Of a stretch of 64,000 bases of DNA, positions 2,237 through 35,200 are shown one piece after another (the first letter of the stretch is position 1; the number at the start of each line of letters is the position of its first letter). The stretch covers positions 5,267,000-5,330,999 of the forward strand of contig OZ005691.1 in the NCBI GenBank assembly GCA_963930775.1. Direction: 5' to 3'. A program made the position numbers and the translations under genes. The notes below the pieces were generated by a model. It searched no databases, was not told the origin of the DNA, and saw nothing but the letters and a program-made list of their open reading frames with translations. Source of the DNA: Cliona cf. orientalis. Lineage: Eukaryota > Porifera > Demospongiae > Clionaida > Clionaidae.

Positions 2237-5200
2237 ACATTACAGATTGTGTCTATGCCCATGTAACTCCTTAACTGTGCAAGTGGGTAGTGCGGAATCG
2301 CCGCTAACTTCATCAAGTTTATAATTATGAAAAACTTTTAGGTGGACATATCTTCCTGGAGGATATACTCCATGGAGAAATTGGTGAAACTTGGAGTTCT
2401 GAAGTTACTACCAGAATAATGAGTATGCACAGTGTAACATTAACCGTGGGTGGGCATGGCTAAGAGGCTAAATAGTTGACATTGCTATCATTGTTTGCAC
2501 CCGCTCATGCTCAAGTTTATAGGTTCAGTAGCATTTCAGCACAGTCCACCCCCATCCAACTTTTGATCGTTTCGATCACTATATGCAGCCGACTACAAAG
2601 GTCACAGATATTTGCTGCCATGGACTATGAATCTAGACTGTAGTTCACTGACTGTAGAAGGCCGTCTCTGTGGCATAACACTTGCCCCAAGCCATGACTG
2701 GAGATGCATGAAAACACATCTGGCCTTTCATCATGACCAACAACTGGTAGTTAATTCTACTTGTCATAACTCTAATTGTCCATCCATTTGTCACAGGATG
2801 TCAGCGGAACCCATCTGACTTTGAGACATAAGATGTTATATCTCTGGCTGTTAGTGTTAGAAGGCTTACGCAGGCTCTCTCTGAGAGTGTCAGTCATGAC
2901 ACTAGCTGTAGGGCATAAAATTTAGTAGAATCTGCTTGGATAGACTGTGCAAATATCAGAATACTTATAACTGGCCTACAGGTAGCTAAGCAGCTAGGTT
3001 CATGAAAAGCTGTCTTGGAAGTAGTAGCTAAATTCTGTATTTGGCTTCTTGCTTTCACATGTTTTGTAAGATACACGGCTAATAAATGAGTTTCTTTGGC
3101 CATTGCTAGTTGGGCCACATGCTCCAATGGGATGTTATAAGTGAGCATGCACATATTATGTACAACTAGCTATTTTTATAAGCATGTGATGTTTACGTAA
3201 TCCATACCCTTTACCTATGAACTCTGTCCATAAATATGCAAGATCTGGCTGTTTTCATCTCATCAAGTACCAATGAAATTAGTCACCTGTAAACACTTAC
3301 ATGTACAAGTATAGTCTTACATGGCCTGCTATGAGTGTTTCAACTGCTAAAAGTCTGTTCACTGGTAACTGAGAAATGATTAACTTAACATTTTCCCCCT
3401 TCCTTGATTCTTAATTAGATGCAAGGATATTCACTTTGCTTACTAACTATACTCAGGACTGTTAAAGAAGCCTCAGCTGGTGATTGTGCAGAGGCTTGTA
3501 AAAAGCTTACATTTAGCTCTTATCACTAATTACTGCCAATTACACGATCGCGAATATCATTAAATGTCAAGTGCACGTGATCATGTCCCCATAGTCAGTG
3601 TACAAAAGACTTGAGTTTCAAAATCTGCTCAAGAAACGGCCAAGGCAGGTACAAAAAAAACCTTCAGCACCGAGGCTTTTCAAGGATACGCAAGCTCATT
3701 GATGATTGTTCGAGGTCGAGGGAGGTGGAAAGGCTGTCCAAATTTTACCAGTTGCTGGCGGTAAGGTCATCAATATTTAATGAGATTGATCTTGGCCCGA
3801 TAACGGGTACATATCCTTCGATAGCATTTGAATGCTTAGGTTTGTGCAACCATTCCACCTATTTTCGACATCTCTACGGTCTGTTCTTTTGTTTAAATCC
3901 TGAATCTTATACATCTGTGACTGTTTTGGTAGCCACCTAGTCGAAAATAGTCGGTTAAGGAAAAAAAACTTTGACCCCCCAAATTTAAGTTAATTAACAA
4001 TGTTGCCATGGTAACTCATGTTTTTACTTTCTTTCCTCTTCAAGACAAATATGTTAGTTAGCCATTACAGTTTATCCCTGGCCTATACTAACAGGTTTTG
4101 TGTTGGAATGTTAGCAGTTTTTGATACTGGCAATCCAAGTTAAGGCTGCCTTAACAGTCCTGAGTACTGGCACCCAATTTAGATATCATCACAAACACCT
4201 GCATACAAACAAGGCTGTGGCCTAATTTATCAGCTAAACAAGAAATAGTTATAATAATAATATTATTATTATAGCTTGTTTGCTATTTCATTTGCAAGAC
4301 TGGTGAAGGCAAAAAGCCAAATACAGAAACTACTACTTCTGTGACAATGACTTGAACAGCTATAGTATCTTCTCATAAATCATGTTGTTTAACTATAGGC
4401 TACTACATGATTGTGTAAGTGTCCATTGTTTCGTGCTTTTCTATAGAGTTAATCCAACAAGCCGGTATTTTTTTAGCCTCGTCCCCAGGCCACTCCCACG
4501 TTTTCAATATTACACGCAGAAAAGGGGGAGGGCCTGGTGCGCAAGCGCACGTGAGTGAGACTAGCTGCATATGATAAAACGCAAGCACATGACGTCGCTC
4601 GTTCGCCCATGCGATCAAGCGAACCATCGCTTGGGCAAGCACGAGGTTTCCCAGGAAGATGGCACTCAGAGATTGACTAAACCCTAAAGGCTACCGACAC
4701 CAGTCTGCCAAGAAAGAAACACCAAGATCGAAAAGAAAACGGCCTTCAGTTGTAGATATATCGCGTCGTATTAGGTCACAGAGATCATCGGAAAAACTTT
4801 GTTCACGGTAGCAAGGTAAACGGTAGAGAAATAATTATAACTGCATGTCTGGTTCATGATAATGTATATACGTGGTGTCAAATTTGAAGGTATTATAATA
4901 CACCCAAGTCCTCCAGTTAGCCTTCTGTTGTCGCGTTCATGCTAGGCTTTGACACTAAAAAACACTTGTGGTTGAAAATAAAATTCAAGTTTTTAAATTT
5001 TGGCGGTGTTATCATTGCATGCTTCAGCGTGTATCATGGCAGTGCAGTTGCTATGTCGTAGTGATTGTCCCGTGTGGCTAAGTGGCAGTGCATCATCAGG
5101 CAGTGGAGTCTGCATGGCTCGGTCAAAGTTGGAAGGGGCCCTTCGTTCAACGTTCCAGCACACAAGCATTTGACCTGGTCAGCTGGAGGCTCTCCTCTCA

Positions 5201-8200
5201 GTCTCCCATGGCAAGGATGTATTTGTGCATGTTTTTGGTCCCAACATCCCTTGGTTGTGGTGCAGTAGGGATTGTTATCAGTCCGCTGGTGGGTCTAATT
5301 GAACAGCAGGTTAGTACTTGCATGATGCATGTGATTAGTGTATATTATGTTGTAAGGCTTGTTATTTAAGGTGTATCTCTTCGAGTGCCTGCTATTCATG
5401 CGTATTGTTCTGAACACATGGCCGGCATAAAGGCTGGAAAGTTCACATTTGGTTGGTTTGTCTTATCTCATACAAATTGAAATAATTATTGAGCAATATT
5501 TTAGTCTTTATGTCACCCGAGACAGTTGCATCACCTGAGTGGAGACGGTTGCTGGCTGAACCTGCCTTACAGCGCAGGGTGTGCATGGTGGCAATTGACG
5601 AGGCACACTGCATACACGAGTGGTTAGTATAGGTGCCATATACCTATACACCATGTGAAATATGATTACCATGTATTGAGTAGGGGTGAAAGTTTCAGGA
5701 AGTCATTCCAGCAAGTAGGAGGGCTGAGAGCGATAATAGAGGCACCATTCATGGCTCTGACAGCTTCAGCTTCACCTGCTGTTGAATCTAAAATAATCTT
5801 CTCCCTGTACTTGTCTTCGCCTGTGACCATATCCTGTGATCTCGATAAGCCCAACATCTTTTTTTTCAGTCAGCCACATAAAGAGTTTGAACGTGAGTTT
5901 AATTGTAATTGTCATGACATAAAAAAATTAATAATAACAGAGTGATTTGGATGGATTAGCCAGGCTTTTGAGGTCACCTACCCATACGGATATCCCCAAG
6001 ACCATAGTCTATGTTCAAACTAAGGACATGGCGTGGAAGGTGTACCACTTTTTACAGCAGGCAGCTCTCAAGCGGTGTTACGTGGGGATGTACCATGCCA
6101 ATCTCATAAGTCACACAAAATCAGTAGTTCATCGAGATTTTGTAGGTCCCAGCTCTTCATTGAGATGTCTGGTGGCTACTGTGGCTTTTGGGATGGTGGG
6201 TAACACAGTTGATAAGAGTTTCTATAGTCATTTCTCAATTATTTAGGGCATGGACATCCCTGATGTTGAAATAGTAGTAGTGTATGGGAATCCATCAACA
6301 ATCTCCTTAATTTATCAGGTACTGGCTAATATAGGTTGCTAGTTTGAAGTGTACCATGTATGCACACTTTTATTGTAGCTATTAAACGTGCAGGACGTAA
6401 TGGAAGCTTTTCACGTGCACACTTTTTTTAGAGTGCCAAGAAAAAATTTGTAGATAAAGAGCTGGAGAGTCTCACAAGAAATTCAGAAAACTGTCGTCGC
6501 AAGATGTTATTAGATAGCATAGGTGGATCTCTTAAGAGTAGGAACAACTATGGATGTTGTGATGTTTGTTCTCCTGATTTATTCTTTGATGAGCGGTTCG
6601 ATATTTTTCAAGTACAGTCAGTTAAACGTAAACGTAGAAGAGTAGTCCGAAATGTTGAAGATGATTTGAAGCAGAAGCTAATTGCTGTTAGAGAAGAAGT
6701 TTACAGAGAGAGACCTAGTTTTAGTATCCTTGGTATTCGTTTCTTGTGTCCAGACTCAACAATTAACAATATATGTAAAGAAGCTAAGTAGATAGAAAGT
6801 GCTGAAGATGCAGTACTATTAAAAGTCCGACAGGAGCTAAGAGAGAAATTTTTTAATGTCATAGCAGATACATCTTCTTGTATACACAGATCACGTAAAC
6901 GTCAAATTGAGTAGATTTATTTATTATGTTTGTGAAATCATCATTAATGAAACTGTGCAATAAACAAATGATCGTTTCAGAAGGCAAATAAAGGAGGCTA
7001 AGTGACATCAAATAGTTCATAATCTTGATAACATTCTGTAAGCTCATATATTGTGTCTTCTTCCAGGTTGTCGTCACACCCTGTTCTGGATAAGGTGTCC
7101 TTGATCCAGTTAGTGTTGCACATCTTATCAAGGCCATCATCAGTGGGATCCTTGAAGCCTATTGAGGTACGTTCTGGTATCTTGTGTGCTTTCGAGAAAG
7201 TAGTTGACCACATTGGTGATATCCTTGTTGGCATCCATTGTTGAGTGTGACTGAGAACGGCATGCACCGAACTCATGAGCAACCCTCTTAGATGCCTCTA
7301 TGAGAAAAAGTGCACACGATAGGTCTTCCGCATGTTGCTGGGTCAAATTGGATCCACCGCTTTTCATTGCTTCCTTTAGGGTCCTACAAGTGCACGTACA
7401 CATGTTGAGTATAGAACATACCAGTTTTGTGCACGTGTTTAAACTTACAGGTTGTAATGCTCATTCATTTGGTCAAGCGGTTTCCCTCTGCCTGCCTTTC
7501 CTTCCATATTTACAGTGCGGTTATGAATTGCTATGAAGGAGAGATGCTTTGGTAGCTCCGCACATAAGTTGGCAATCTGGTGAACACACTCCACAGCATA
7601 ATTCTTCCTCCCAGTTCCAATTAGTCTTGGCAACCATAGCTTCCATAGTCTCACAATATGTGGTCCATGCTCATATCTGATGGCGCATCTTAGATCCACA
7701 TACAGAAAAGCTAGATGAAGAAATGTTCTGTGCATGATGTATAGTGTGTCACTGGATGGTGCGTGCATAGGCATCACAGTCTCGGTGACTAGTTTCTCTG
7801 CCGTTGACTGAAGCCATGTGAGGGACTTTTCATGTAGTATGATGTCAGATGTTGACTGTAATCCAAATATGGTACATATCCTTGCTGTCAGGTGCGCTTT
7901 GAATGAGTGGATGACAAATTCATCGCGAACACTGAACACTTTGACATCTTTATCCACCTGATTCCGTCTGATCTGTTCCCTCACATTGCAGAGTGATCCG
8001 TGTTCAGCCGGAGTGCCCCAGAAGATGAGAAAGATGACTCGGAGACATTCCCAGAGAAAATGGAAGTAATCTGTTGCATAAATAGCATTTAGTCATCAGT
8101 ATTCTTGATGCTGTTCTAAATAGAGCCTACCTGGAGTTTCATGTGCCCATGTGAGCCTGTCAGTGACATTCATCTCGGACGCTCTCCACAGCTTGGATCC

Positions 8201-11200
8201 TCGGATATTCTTGCATATGAGTTGGTCCCCAATTACTAACTGCATACATGTAAACATGTGCATGTACACGTACATTGTAAATAACATGATACATGTTTAG
8301 GAATGGAAATTTGTGCTTAATCATTTATAGCCCATATTATTATTCAATAATAATGTACCTGATGCTGGCCTGACAGGTTAGTGTCACTCATTAGTTGTGT
8401 GAGAATGTCAATAGTTTGACTTTTGTACTTTTCATCTTTGTACAGGATCTTCATGGGGTCAACTTGTGATTTTGTTACAGGATGGATCGACTCGGGTTCA
8501 GGAACAAATTCTGCAAGATGCTTGAGATTTGAGAACGTCTCCATAAGGAATCCCATCATGTAGTGCACAGTCTGTTGATGCAACACAGTGGCATCAGCCT
8601 CGCTTGGGAGAAAGTCGTCAACATTGAGGGAGGTCCGAAGTCGTTGTGGGGTGGTGTCAGCCCAATCAAACTCAAAGGAAGGGAGGTTCTTGATCTTTAT
8701 AGCCAACCTTGACGTCAGATTCAACATTGAGGAATGGTGATCTGGAGAGGTGTGTTGTATACATACACTATAGTAATGCATAATTGCCCGGTACACGTAC
8801 ATACATGTAATACATAGTACATGTACTAATGAGTGCACATTGTTGATTGCATGTACCTAGCCTCTCATGACGAATTTTCTGATGCAGGTTTAGATTGTCA
8901 TAGATCCACAACCAGCATCCTTCTCTTATGATCTCCAAGTACATAGACTCCTGGGTGAGTTGTTTCAAATACTTCCATGCAGTCGCATAATAAGTACAGA
9001 GGCCAGCATGATTAAGCACTGTCATGATCTACATAAATAGCAATAGTTATTATTGAGGGATGCTTGATTTTTTTATTTCTCACTTGTTTACTTGCAGCCT
9101 GTGCAATAAGCATGAATGAGAAGAGAAGTTGGAGTCCAAGCACCTTCACAGACCGACCCTTGAGCAGGGTACATAGCGCTGTCGTCGACCTCATGTGGAC
9201 TATTCGTGATAAATCATCGTCATCTTCGAACCTAGCACCCTTTGCCAACTGTTGGAATAATTCGACAACATGTGGAGCAGCAGTACGTAATTCTGCTATC
9301 ACTGCATCCAGGGAGAAACTGCGGAAGTGGTCAACTGTGTCGGGGCCATGAAAGGAACACATATTAGATTGAAGCAGTGTCTGCATCTGATCATCCAACT
9401 TCTGTATCGAGAGTGACGACTGCTGCTGGCATTTCAGGTCTTCAAATTGCTGCTGAAGCTACTGAAGTTGTTGCCAGAGACACTCTTTTATCTTTCGTTC
9501 ATGCTGCAACGACTGTTCTAGAGCCACCACCTGGGACGCTAAGCTATCTATGGTGCTACCACCAGCTTGTGGGTTGATTTCGATTCCATAGATGTACTTG
9601 TGCTTCTTCTCCCCTCCTTTTTTTGCCAACTGATGCAGGAAATCCCTTGCTGATAGCGTTAGACACAACGTACGTACTGATGTTGTCTGTTGGAAAAGCA
9701 CGTTGAACTTCAAACTTGATCCTTGATGCTCCTTGTCCTCTTGCTGGAGATGCTCGATATCGACGTTTGATCCACTGGTTTACTTCAGGGTTAAAATCCA
9801 TGCTGACATCCAACTGTTTGATTCTCTTCCAAGAGCTCTCCTTCTTAAATATCCTATCTAGATCTATTTTTAGCCTTGTGGTTTTGTCTAGTCTGTGCCT
9901 GTTATCTATTTTTAGTCATTGATTGTGTCATTTGTAATGATGTCAAAAAAAATAAACCTGTTGAATCCAGATCTTATATTATGAGCTCGAGCTTGCCATT
10001 TCACTCGCACACGTGTCAGTACCAGTTATTTACAGTTTAGGCAAGTACTACTAGCTAGCTAGTGACCCTACATGAGATTATCACTGGTACTGCCATGGGG
10101 CTGTATCGGTGGCTTGCTGTTACATCTGACAGTACTGTGATAAGCATCAAGTGAACCTGTTTCTTGCAGAAATATCCACCATGGACACGCACAGGAAAGG
10201 AGTGACCAAGGTAAGTATCTTGTGGCTGGGTAGATCATTCTACACAGTTGGCCTGCTATTAAACGAGTAGCTGCATGCGCGTGGGCGCACGCAACATGCT
10301 AATATGTGTCGCCTACACGCAATTAAGTCGATTCCAGGTTGGTTCCAGGTGCAACGTTACTCACGTGCGCTCGCGCATCAGGCCCCCCCCCTTTTCTGCG
10401 TGTAATATTGAAAACGTGGGAGTGGCCTGGGGACGAGGCTAGTATTTTTAGTGCCTTGATTGGTGCACACAGAGACTTTCTATTGCTAGCTTCCATCATA
10501 TAATAGCCAGAGCTACAGCATTTTGTATCTCAAGGTCGAGTTGTTTCCACTGATCTTCCATATTGGATAGATAGATGGACAACAATAATTCGATAGCATG
10601 CTATACAAATTGAATTTATCAATACTTACATAGTTCACAATATTTTGACGACAGCTCTTTACCCTTAGTACAGCCTTGGATTTGCTTTTTAAAAACTGTT
10701 CAAGATGAGCTGTGGCTCTATGATCAGTGAAGTCAATTAGTTCAAGAAAAAGCAATAACCACTCCGTACACTCAGTCTCAATAAGACTTTGTTGTAGATT
10801 GTGATGATTACAAATATCCATCATGAACTGAATAAAAGATATTCCCTGCAATGTATGGAATGTAAATAATCACGCTGATAAATTATATTGTTTTATTAAA
10901 CATTACAAGATCAAAGTACTGCAGTGTCGATAACAGTGTACATGTGGCATTGTAGTATGCATGGCAGTGAGATAATATTAATTGGATATTGCATGGACTA
11001 CTCTCATACCATACTTAGATTATTGGTACTTGATCCCCCAATAATAAACATATAGCTACATCCTTATATTTGACAAACCTCAGTAATAGTTCCAGAGAGT
11101 GTCTGTTCTGTGCTTATGCGAACAACTCTTCCAATTCCACATTCTAGCCATCCTTTAAAAATCTTTCTGACATCACCCAAAACCCCTAGAATATCTTTCT

Positions 11201-14200: not shown

Positions 14201-17200
14201 ATGGCATCATCTTTCTCTCTCACTCCATACATGCAGCAAATGCAGCAGTCTGCCTTAGCCACACCTCCCTCTACCGCCGCCGTCACCCTTCTACCACCCA
14301 CAATGGTCAACCAGCAACCCCCCCTCCCACCTGGAGCGTCAGCAGCACTCACAGGTTTCCACTTATCTGGTGAACTGTCGGGTATGTTACCTCATAATAC
14401 CATACAAAAAATTCTCACATTAAATTTTTTTGATTTAACCAACTTGCTACCAAGCAATACTGCATCACTGCATGACCCCCAACCAATCCATTTACAAGTG
14501 GGGGGTGATACTGGCCAGCAGCTTGTCCTCTCCAGGAGACCTACCCAAAAGAAACAAATCAACTCGATTCAAGATTGGGTTTTAGCATTCACTGCGTACG
14601 CAGCGGTCCTAACCACAGCTAATCCCACAAGAGCCGCAGACCTCTTCGAATACACACGCCTAATAGTGCAAGCTCAACAGCAATATAGAGGGGAGGCATG
14701 GCAAATGTACAACATAGCCTTCCGAAAGAAAGCCGCAAATCGCCACCTCACCAAATGGGCAGATATAGACAGCGCTCTATGAAATAGAGCCTTTTCTGGC
14801 AAAAGCAACGACTCCGCATTCTGTAGGCTCTGCTTAGATGCAACCCATGCAACAGTTGAGTGCCCTTTATATACAGCGGAACTAGCCCAACGCCGCCGAA
14901 CTAGTCCCGAAACGGACGGCGGCAAATCTATCTGTCTCAACTGGAACAGGGGACATTGCACCCACAATCCCTGTCGCAGAGCGCATGTCTGCGCAACAGT
15001 TGGTTGTGGCGGTAACCACCGCTACTCAAACTGCCCTAAGCGAAGACAATCACCCCGTAAATCCCATCCCCCCACCACCCAAACGTAGCTGCACCACATC
15101 ACCACCGGATAAAAGAGCACAAAGTAAAGAAGCCACTTCATCTTGGCTTTCAAAATCAATAACCACAAAACGCGATCTTCTCCCATTAATAGGTCTCCTT
15201 TCATTTGCCGCGAAAGTCGTGCCCCCCGGTCGGACTTTTCTGCGAAGAATGATCGACCTGTCCTCCTCCATGGTCTCTAGTTAATAATTATAATTAATCT
15301 TATCAGGATTTCTTAGATATTGTATGCATATGATTATTAGTTTAATGTATCACAATATTTGTTCTTTTAATTTTTTTTTAATTTATTTTCTCTCTCAATT
15401 TTCTCCCCTGGTGCATTGCTGCTTATCACACTAATGTAATCTTGCAATCACATCACCCACAATAAGTTTTGTACCAACATTATTCATTTGGCCCAGAGTT
15501 ACACTACAAAAAAAAAAAAAGAGCGTATTATAATCATACAGGCACAATACTTTACCGCTTAAGTATCGTAAACTTACTCTTTTGGCGGTAGCACAAGGGT
15601 GACCAACCATATCACTTTGCCTCAGTGCCTTGGCTGCGACACCAATCTCCCAGTGCCTTGGTTGCGGCATATTATACGCTAACCTAGCTTACGTGGTCTC
15701 AGTACCTGCTCTGCCTTTGGCACCAGGTTGCGACCAGGTCAATTAACCCTGACTGGCTGCCCCCTATCACGGCTCTGGGCCAAATTATAATTGTGATATC
15801 CACTAACAATCGCGGCGGTTAACCCACATTGATGATACTCTTGATGCCATGGGAGAGACCTGCTTGGTTTAACACGGAATTTGGCTAATGGCTATTAGCA
15901 GGTTATTCTGTATCCGACTGACGACCAATTTCATGTTCTGCCCTTTTGACTTTGCAATGATCGATCCAGCAACTTTCCAATGCATTTACATTTATGTCAC
16001 TTTTACCTGAAGCTACATCATTTCACATAATCATGCATGTCCGGTTAATTACATAGTGTGCTGGGTGCACACTTCAATGACTGTTTAAGTGCTAGCTATA
16101 CATAAAGCTAGCTAGTTAGTTCCATTGCTACATGAGCTAGAGCTTTCTAGTGAACATGTCCCATGCATAGTCTCGTAAACCAGACCCCTATTCCGTAGTG
16201 CTGGGTGTATTTCATCACCAGCACGCAGAAAGAGGGTCTGGGGATTCTGGGCACCAATCCGTGGCTCCTACTGGAATGTCGGCGGAGCCAATGAGATCGC
16301 TCAGAATGGTCACATGACCATGCTGTGCCCGCAAATATGCCATTAATAAGCTGCTCGATTCACCCCTCAGTGTCCAAATTTTAGCAAATCCTTGCTAGAA
16401 GGCCGCTTTGAGGACGTCTATGCACTGATACGAGGGCTATTACTTAAACAGCGATGCATGGTTTGGCTACTTTTTCTGACTTTTCAGATATTTTTATAGT
16501 GAAAAAACACAGAAATAGACTCACGCACGCGCTTAGGAGCCGCGCTGACTAAGTATTCCAGATTTTGATACATTTAGCTACTTTATTGATAGCTTTTAAC
16601 CAGTATAGTTCAAACAAGTAGTTCAGGATCATAAACAGCACGTAGAACTCGAAGGAGTTGCAACAAAAAGTTTTGCGGTAAAATATTGCTTTCCGTTTAC
16701 GTGACGTAAAAATTCCACTGTGCCATGGATTAGTGCCCAGAATCCCCAGACCCTCTTTCCGTGTGCTGGTTATGAAGTATACACAGCGCTGCGGAGTAGG
16801 AGTCTGGTTTACGAGACTAATCCCATGCATACTGTAGCATAATGCGCTAGCCTCTAGCCCATAGACAAGGGATTATGTGGTTAGATAAGCCCATGTTATA
16901 AACCAATATTTCTAACTCAAAAGACCCCTACAGGGTTTTTTCTAGCATGAGCAGTGAATCTAATATTCATAATGGCTTTACTAGGTGTGGTCTATAGGTG
17001 CGGCATTTAAAGCATGATTTGTATCGTTTGTGGCCCTTGCAACACGTGTGGAAGCAAAGATTTCTCAGCACACTTAAGGCCAGGTACCAACTGGAATCTA
17101 CTGCTGAAATAGACATCTTTCAAAGGCTCATACTGCCACTAAATAGAAGGATAGAGGGCTCATCATGACTAATTCAAGTATCTGGATATTAATAGTTAAT

Positions 17201-32200: not shown

Positions 32201-35200
32201 AGTACAGGAGGTCTACTAGGCTTGCAAATTCATGCTCATTCTGGGTATTGTGCTCATTAAATTCAATCATATTGGGTGTGGTGTGGGTGGAGTTTTAATT
32301 AATGATAGCCAGATCTAGTGGGTGTGGTCTATGTCCCTGGAGCTGTTCAGAAAAAGTTGGAGCCTATGTGATTAGATATCAATAATATGCCATTAAATTT
32401 ACGTAGCTCTTTATGCTTCATTGAATTAGAAAACGCACTTCACTGGACAGCAATTCGGGGCAAAATCAGCTAAGTCTAATGGAAGCATCCCATGCTTTTA
32501 TTTCAGCTACAAAGGAAGGACCAGACTACATCTGTATGTGTTGGAATCGGCTTATGTACCGTAAGACATCACAGAAAATTTGCAGCTGAAAAGCAGTATG
32601 TATTGACGGATCTCAGATCAGACAGCATCACAGGCAACTGAGCCGTAGCCTTACACGGTGAAGCACTTGAAGCCAAGCTTGGCAATCTTACATACTTGAA
32701 AAGTTGCAGAGATCCTAGAAAGATTTCACAAAGTAGCATTAATTGGAATACAACAAGTGACTGTAGCGATCTTTTACCATGCTCTAGTCTCGTGCTCAGA
32801 GCCTGCAAGAGCTAGATCTAGAAAAGGAAGGGCTGGGCACGAGACCAATTGCGCACGGGGTCATGTGCTCTACAAAGCTCTACTTTTAAGAATGTTGAGT
32901 AATCAGAAAATTGATAAGCAGGGGTTGCTGTTGAGCATTATTAAACGTAGTTGGAAAGATCTGCGAAGCAGAACGTTTCGGACCGTGGTCCTTCATCAGC
33001 TGCAAATGCACACTGGTCTAGTGTGCATTTGCAGCTGATGAAGGACCACGGTCCGAAACGTTCTGCTTCGCAGATCTTTCCAACTACGTTTAATAATGCT
33101 CAACAGCAACCCCTGCTTATCAACAACAACGTAGTCACGAGCCTCTATTCTATAATCAGAAAATTGCTAAAAGTTCCTATACTGTAGCTAATCGTATCTG
33201 TTTTCATGTTTTCTTACATACTGCATTAATGTGGTGAGACCATGTAAGATCAGTGAAAAAGTTGACACCAAGGTATATGAAATGATCTCTTCACGTTCAC
33301 CATTCTTTACGATCATCATTCTTATTTCTTTACTTTTTAAGGACATGCCATCCCTATATCCTTAAATATGAAACTGAATGGACCAGCCCACTTGATAGCA
33401 TTCATACACTACTCACCAGATATATTTCCTAATTGCATTCATCCATTCATGCAGTGGAAGGGTTGATTATCCTTGAATCAAGTCACAAATAACTGATTTG
33501 GGCTGTCCAAATCAGGTACCAAGTTTGGGAGTTTCAGCCATTTCCTCCTGATATTTGATGTGCATTATTTAAGATTCATCCATGACCATGCAAGGTAATG
33601 ACTGTTGCAAACAGTACACAAGAACTAAGCTTGTACTTAGCTTGTGATTGTAAATGCTAATTGGAGCTAGTCTTAAAATATATAGGTGTCCTTGGCTAAA
33701 TGCACATTAATTTTCTGGACATGCCAGTAGAGCATTCACAGTCAACTCTTGTTCACACACTACAAAGCACAAAGCTTCTCTAGCCCATAAGTCGATCACT
33801 GTACAGTGCTTGTGCATTGGTTCACAATCATCAGTACCATAGTAGAAATAGCTAAGGAGACACATTATTGAGCTTGATGAAAATCATCTAATGGAGGGTA
33901 CACATGGTTTAGGTAATTCGCATCCTTAGTATCAATGTCTTAATTCAACAAGGCACTCTGTGACAGCTGCATTGACCACCTAAATGGAGAATGAAATGTG
34001 GCTTTACTCTTGACTGTAGTATTTGCATATACAACAGGGTGATGGAGGCCAGATTATACGTTAACTACAAAAAATAGCATAGTGCCACTACCCTGATGTT
34101 CAAGAAGAATCATATGCCACTATCCTGATATTCAAGAAGAATCTGATCTACTTCTATACAGTTGTTATGGACTGTAAAACAGATATAGGTACAAGGCCAT
34201 ATATACATACAAGTATAAAATGAAATGCAATACTAAATACCAGCATGCATTACTTACTCCAAAACATCCTGGTGTAAACAAATCCTTTATACGGCATACA
34301 AACAGATGTTTGTGTTTTACTCATCTTATATGACTCAGTCATAAGTCTATGACTAGCACTTTCAAGAAGTCGAAGTACACTTTGAGGAAGACTAGTCTCT
34401 AAACTCTGATCTGGAAAGTCTACTTTGAAATCCTCCCTAAATAATATAATAATAATAATTATAACAATGCAAAATATTATGTCATACTAAATATGAACTA
34501 AAATGTGTAATGTGCAGCACCAGTTTAAGCATGTGAGAATGGTTGACTGAGTGTTGTTTGACAGTAGTTCAATGGTCTGTAAAGATATAGAACGTTTCGG
34601 ATAGTGATCCTTCATTAGCTATAAATGCACGATCAGTTAATCATCCTCCTATTTCATCATAAACATACTTATGAGTAAGGATGGGCAATATTATATTGCT
34701 ATTAGTTATTCAAGTATGATAATTGGTGGATATATTGTCTGCATCTGTAGCATCATCGAATTATAGTCATTGGTAGTAAAGTACAAGGTCAACAGTATGA
34801 TGGGCAGCTACTCTCAAGCATTTTTGTGAGCAACCTGTCCAGTTTTTTACAAACGACCGTAGCTGTCAATGCATTGCTCCCCTTGTTAGTTTGAGCTACA
34901 CCATCAGTTGCGTATGTGGGTACTCTAAGGGGCTGACTGAGAATACTATAGAGTACCCATGACTCCACTTGGCTTATTAACCTGTGTGTATGCATGGGCA
35001 GGGGAAAAGTGATTGGTCTCTATGTCTGTCCTTGCCATTGTTGTCCACATGAAAATTGCCCGATTTCAAGATGTAAATGTGTATAGTGGCCAGAGGTGTC
35101 ATGAAAATTAATCATAAATGGAGAATAAGCGATGATTCTTTGCTTCTAAGCGCTTGACAAGGGCCACAAAGGCTACAAGTCATACTTTTTTCATGGTCAT

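Follow-up and report, generated by a model that had tools for sequence, protein, structure and literature searches.

A DNA transposon of the sponge Cliona cf. orientalis that pairs a DUF6589 gene with a RecQ-like helicase gene and probably belongs to the AcademH lineage

The element at positions 4474-10441 of the window (the whole stretch of 64,000 nucleotides that was analysed) is a 5,968-bp copy of a DNA transposon, and this copy and its kin are genuine DNA transposons with many relatives in the genome. With a probability of about 0.8, we read the window element as a decayed copy of the AcademH type, in which the DUF6589 protein would be the DDE transposase and the RecQ helicase a fixed accessory, with short derivatives moved in trans.

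Borders, target duplications and empty sites

The left terminal inverted repeat (TIR) of the window element (4474-4556, plus strand) starts with the tip TAGCCTCG, spans 83 nt and is 96% complementary to its right partner (10359-10441, minus strand), which shows the same tip when read from the right. The element is flanked by GTATTTTTT on the left (4465-4473) and GTATTTTTA on the right (10442-10450), two T-rich copies of a target duplication that are equal at 8 of 9 bases. The 83-bp TIRs and the near-perfect 9-bp duplication had been claimed in the earlier note, the coordinates of which proved correct to the base. Because its duplication is imperfect and T-rich, the window copy, taken alone, is the weaker evidence; that its borders exceed chance follows from the 40 scored TIR matches and the exact 9-bp duplications at all four other long TIR pairs.

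The search covered the genome to which the window belongs (216.8 Mb in 149 contigs), and the 40 TIR matches were scored out of 750 first-look candidates. Among them are four further long TIR pairs, L009 (6,081 bp), L010 (4,344 bp), L011 (8,683 bp) and L012 (6,568 bp). L009 and the window copy share 93.9% identity across the whole element, and L010 is a relative that lacks part of the inside. The ends of L011 and L012 are 91-95% alike to those of the window copy and their insides align with it over just 86 bp (73%) and 265 bp (67%), respectively, so that the ends are better conserved than the inside. The copies thus form two subfamilies with common ends, the window copy, L009 and L010 versus L011 and L012, a pattern that looks as if ends had been exchanged or had been kept alike by shared transposases.

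Altogether, 25 loci were read, namely the 20 best-scoring DUF6589 loci (L013-L032) and the five TIR-found copies, the window copy included. Exact duplications flank 19 of these, 17 of them 9 bp long, one of 10 bp (L026) and one of 11 bp, or 9 plus TA (L016); the window copy is near-exact, and the other five (L013, L018, L022, L027 and L032) are without an assigned duplication. The duplications differ in sequence between loci and are neither TTAA nor otherwise fixed; even L019 and L020, which are near copies of each other, have differing ones. We do not claim a target preference from the G found at duplication position 1 in 23 of 50 strands (p 0.003 without correction, and assuming 38% GC, the window having 41%). 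The tip of the elements is TAG[T/C]CTCG at most loci, the exceptions being L021 (TAGTTGGG), one end of L016 (TACCCTCG) and one end of L025 (TAGTCTTG). At the nested locus L031, the duplication is an exact 9 bp and the same 9-mer stands at two candidate left ends; beside these larger nested elements lies a 329-bp short element (L031:7420-7748) that has TAGTCTCG ends and is flanked by an 8-bp duplication, ACTTTGGA.

Empty sites match the borders of two copies. The joined flanks of L012 match at least 40 places at 92-96% across the junction, and in all four aligned places the 9-mer (AGTAATGCC or AATAATGCC) is present once; five joined flanks were searched jointly and all of the at least 40 listed matches are those of L012, so that the result says nothing on L009, L010 and L011. 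For L014, relatives match the junction of the joined flanks at up to 80%, and the site is present once, with two bases differing, in all three aligned places. For the window copy, no empty site was found: its joined flanks gave its own two flanks and three partial matches, with one weak spanning match at 66%. L014 (C1:25937149-25943186) sits in another repeat family, which is the source of its empty sites; this family reads LHADNCSGQNKNRYVMQYLAWRV in an open frame that is perhaps a gene of another transposon.

A non-autonomous family of about 420 bp carries the same ends as the long elements. Eight of ten further TIR matches that were fetched have both ends, 411-422 bp apart, and the remaining two (L041 and L042) have one end each. 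Exact 9-bp duplications flank seven of the eight two-ended copies; L036 fits only after a one-base shift. L033 and L038, on different contigs, are identical over 423 bp, from which it follows that the family has moved recently, and L033 and L035 are 99.1% identical over 430 bp. The earlier note, which described a single mobile unit with readable borders and proposed to look elsewhere in the genome for TIR pairs that enclose both genes and carry flanking duplications, and for empty sites in a sister allele, is thus borne out by the other copies, their duplications and the empty sites of L012 and L014; for the window copy itself, no empty site was found.

The window also contains a second short relative (16168-16819), a non-autonomous element of 652 bp with TAGTCTCG ends and 98-nt arms that are 88% complementary; read by eye, it is flanked left and right by the 9-mer TCCCATGCA, with an additional A at the right end. 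We dropped the notion that every TIR is itself a complete mini-element, bounded by an inner GAGACTA (near 4563 in the window), as this arrangement was seen in 1 of 36 ends scanned.

The two genes and their pairing

The RecQ-like helicase gene lies on the plus strand at 5111-6878, where tblastn with the helicases of L012 and L014 delineates exon blocks at about 5111-5315, 5655-5864, 5938-6228 and 6387-6878. In a Pfam scan, the exons of the window copy gave weak matches to Helicase_C (E 0.0024) and RecQ_Zn_bind (E 0.0077), both below the curated cut-offs, and two exons were without any family match. The L014 helicase, by comparison, is strongly matched by DEAD (E 1.8e-15) and Helicase_C (E 2.1e-14) and matches solved RecQ structures, from E 1.4e-30. 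Judged by Pfam and by these structures, the helicases of the elements are true relatives of RecQ. Compared with L009 and L010, the window helicase lacks 32 bp near 5225 that hold the ATP-binding loop PTGGGKS, and the loss also disrupts the reading frame. Together with the imperfect duplication, this loss suggests that the window copy is old and inactive; it had been described as complete-ended, which is true of its ends and not of its inside, which is decayed.

The DUF6589 gene, also of several exons, occupies 7445-9774 on the minus strand, as judged from matches to the PF20231 profile and from tblastn. In the order of transcription, its exon blocks are at about 9637-9774 and 9081-9398, followed by an exon with a YDN motif near 8890-9028, a block at about 8356-8742, a short frame with GDQLI near 8227 and the core exon (7445-8092; PF20231 E 5.2e-30), which contains EHYN near 7460; a second stretch, 8344-8793, matches the profile with E 0.0041. 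The two convergent genes thus lie inside the element, as claimed previously.

Three acidic motifs recur in fixed order in the DUF6589 proteins in a pattern scan of the 25 loci. The first, [G/Y]DN, was recovered by pattern at 22 loci; L011 reads IFDNVN, which is outside the range used in this count. The second, GDQLT or a close variant, was recovered by pattern at 23 loci, the match in L029 being judged a chance one (hence 22-23), and in L025 a stop falls inside the motif. The third, EH[L/Y/M/I]N, is present at 22 loci, and its E, H and N are invariant across 14 aligned core exons. We infer that DUF6589 is most likely a DDE transposase, with the acidic motifs supplying D, D and E; a sequence comparison of DUF6589 with solved structures yielded no credible relative (best E 0.36). 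A domain listed in Pfam as being of unknown function would thereby gain a likely transposase role and named candidate catalytic residues.

At each of the 25 loci read, a RecQ-like helicase gene lies 3' of DUF6589 and convergent with it. The PF20231 search of the genome gave 122 matches that correspond to 102 distinct places, scored among 338 first-look candidates, the other 20 matches representing additional fragments of genes already counted. A convergent RecQ-like helicase is found within 5 kb of DUF6589 at 101 of these 102 listed places, with about 0.003 per place expected by chance. For 75 of the places, the partner was found through 134 matches of the L014 helicase and 11 of 62 RecQ_Zn_bind places, and for 26 of the remaining 27, through 41 matches of an L012 helicase exon and 5 of 87 matches of another L012 exon; the sole listed place without a listed helicase is C1:22577135. 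In the reverse count, 87 of the 134 helicase places lie within 5 kb of a listed DUF6589, and the other 47, which include host-type RecQ genes, do not. The many RecQ-like and DUF6589 genes of this genome are largely explicable as parts of one class of transposons with exact borders.

Relationship to known transposons

Among the systems considered, AcademH alone fits on both comparable features, the helicase and the duplication length; hence we call the element AcademH-like, and it probably belongs to AcademH, this assignment being based on these two features and not on a comparison of transposases. The AcademH lineage of the Academ superfamily was reportedly described by Kojima in 2020 (Mob DNA 11:15). 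The 2020 AcademH paper appears in the reference lists of PMC12210899 and PMC8290104. According to the available text of PMC10045372, AcademH makes duplications of 9 or 10 bp and its sister lineage AcademX of 3 or 4 bp, a difference tied to the helicase of the former versus the nuclease of the latter; the available text of PMC10799480 gives DEAD with Helicase_C as domains of AcademH or KolobokH and places AcademH in three fungal phyla. The statement of the earlier note that no standard superfamily has this pair of genes is therefore probably wrong. No difference from AcademH emerged in a comparison with these descriptions that covered the helicase and the duplication length, whereas AcademX departs from the present elements both in its short duplications (3-4 versus 9 bp) and in having a nuclease instead of a helicase (PMC10045372, same text). 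Literature searches that combined Academ with sponges and a helicase, or with an XPG nuclease and a transposase, found nothing. The AcademX nuclease is XPG, and the XPG_I profile gave just four places in the genome and no AcademX candidate. Relatives were also sought in IMG/VR (23 pattern matches, none confirmed), in bacterial and archaeal genomes, for close relatives only (7 pattern matches, none confirmed), and in plasmid and phage searches, and none were found.

The elements could instead form a separate, undescribed superfamily, in which a DUF6589 transposase unrelated to Academ would have acquired its RecQ helicase independently. A full-text literature search for DUF6589 found nothing, the link to AcademH is one of described traits, and an accessory RecQ helicase is also present in KolobokH (available text of PMC9587614), which argues that such helicases were captured more than once; nevertheless, a helicase combined with 9-10 bp duplications is the set of traits given for AcademH in the text at hand of PMC10045372, and we consider a separate origin improbable. 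It appears very unlikely that the elements belong to a different established superfamily that has long TIRs or a helicase, be it KolobokH, KDZ (Zisupton and Kyakuja), MULE or Helitron. MULEs have long TIRs and duplications of about 9 bp, which would suit, but the Pfam scan of the exons of the window copy, L011, L012 and L014 detected no transposase family of MULE, KDZ or Helitron, just DUF6589 and helicases. KolobokH of fungi resembles the present elements in being a DNA transposon with a RecQ helicase, but Kolobok duplicates the 4-bp TTAA (PMC9587614), as opposed to 9 bp without a fixed sequence here, and the helicase of KolobokH lies downstream of the transposase, not convergent on the other strand. 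Helitrons likewise encode a helicase but use an HUH nuclease (PMC12730594), in contrast to the long TIRs and 9-bp duplications seen here, and within KDZ the duplications are 8 bp in Zisupton and 7 bp in Kyakuja (PMC12730594), against mostly 9 bp here. Finally, two unrelated genes might merely happen to lie between inverted ends, or both might belong to the host; the T-rich, imperfect duplication of the window copy would be compatible with this, but the other copies, the exact duplications, the empty sites and the pairing at 101 of 102 places leave it practically no room.

Inner repeats of the ends and the possible role of the helicase

Under the preferred reading, that of an AcademH-type element, the DUF6589 DDE transposase would recognise the long TIRs with the tip TAG[T/C]CTCG, cut there and join the freed ends to the target with a stagger of 9 bp (rarely 10 bp). 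The convergent RecQ-family helicase would be a fixed accessory that, we infer, most likely unwinds the ends or the strand-transfer intermediate, and the short derivatives of about 420 bp, having the same ends, would be mobilised in trans.

The ends contain an inner inverted repeat, about CCAGNCC / GGNCTGG, that starts at position 12-14 in all 15 representative 5' ends; there, the 9-mer pairs at 7-9 of 9 bases with a partner further in, across loops of 12-64 nt. As several representatives are closely related, they amount to fewer than 15 independent cases. Best pairing averages 7.1-7.3 at positions 12-14 versus 5.1-6.3 elsewhere in the first 40 positions (10-16 excluded). In the left end of the window element, the repeat spans 4485-4537 (plus strand), with the arms CCAGGCC (from 4485) and GGCCTGG (to 4537), as read from the sequence in the frame of a position scan made with the other end of the element. 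The arms vary on both sides, with CCAGGCC / GGCCTGG in the family of the window copy, CCAGACC / GGTCTGG in L017 and L030, and CCCAACCTT / AAGGTTGGG in L021, and the repeat contains a mismatch in the L014, L019, L023, L025, L026 and L028 types. Folding energies of whole ends relative to shuffled sequences are mixed (z from -7.2 to +1.4 for 28 ends of 100 nt; mean z -0.25 and minimum -3.5 for 84 internal control stretches), so it is the position scan on which the claim of an inner repeat is based.

The inner repeat may be a hairpin or a pair of protein-binding sites in inverted orientation, and is a possible reason for the presence of the helicase. That the helicase is kept because transposition passes via unwound, hairpin-folded ends, in a helicase-dependent DDE pathway unlike ordinary cut-and-paste, is a tentative idea that we put forward with considerable doubt. 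The defined ends, the empty sites and the recently moved short copies provide material for asking why a DDE transposon keeps a RecQ helicase. The inner arms of the L029 and L030 ends are rich in G-runs (for example, GGGGAGGGAGGGTCTGGG in L030), a feature of some ends and not of all, and contain a possible G-quadruplex motif. Elsewhere in the window, a palindrome-like stretch of 63 bp (32785-32847, from TAGTCTCGTGC to GCACGAGACCA) stands without a flanking duplication, and positions 32911-33123 form a perfect inverted repeat, with two 104-nt arms that are 100% complementary and 5 nt between them.
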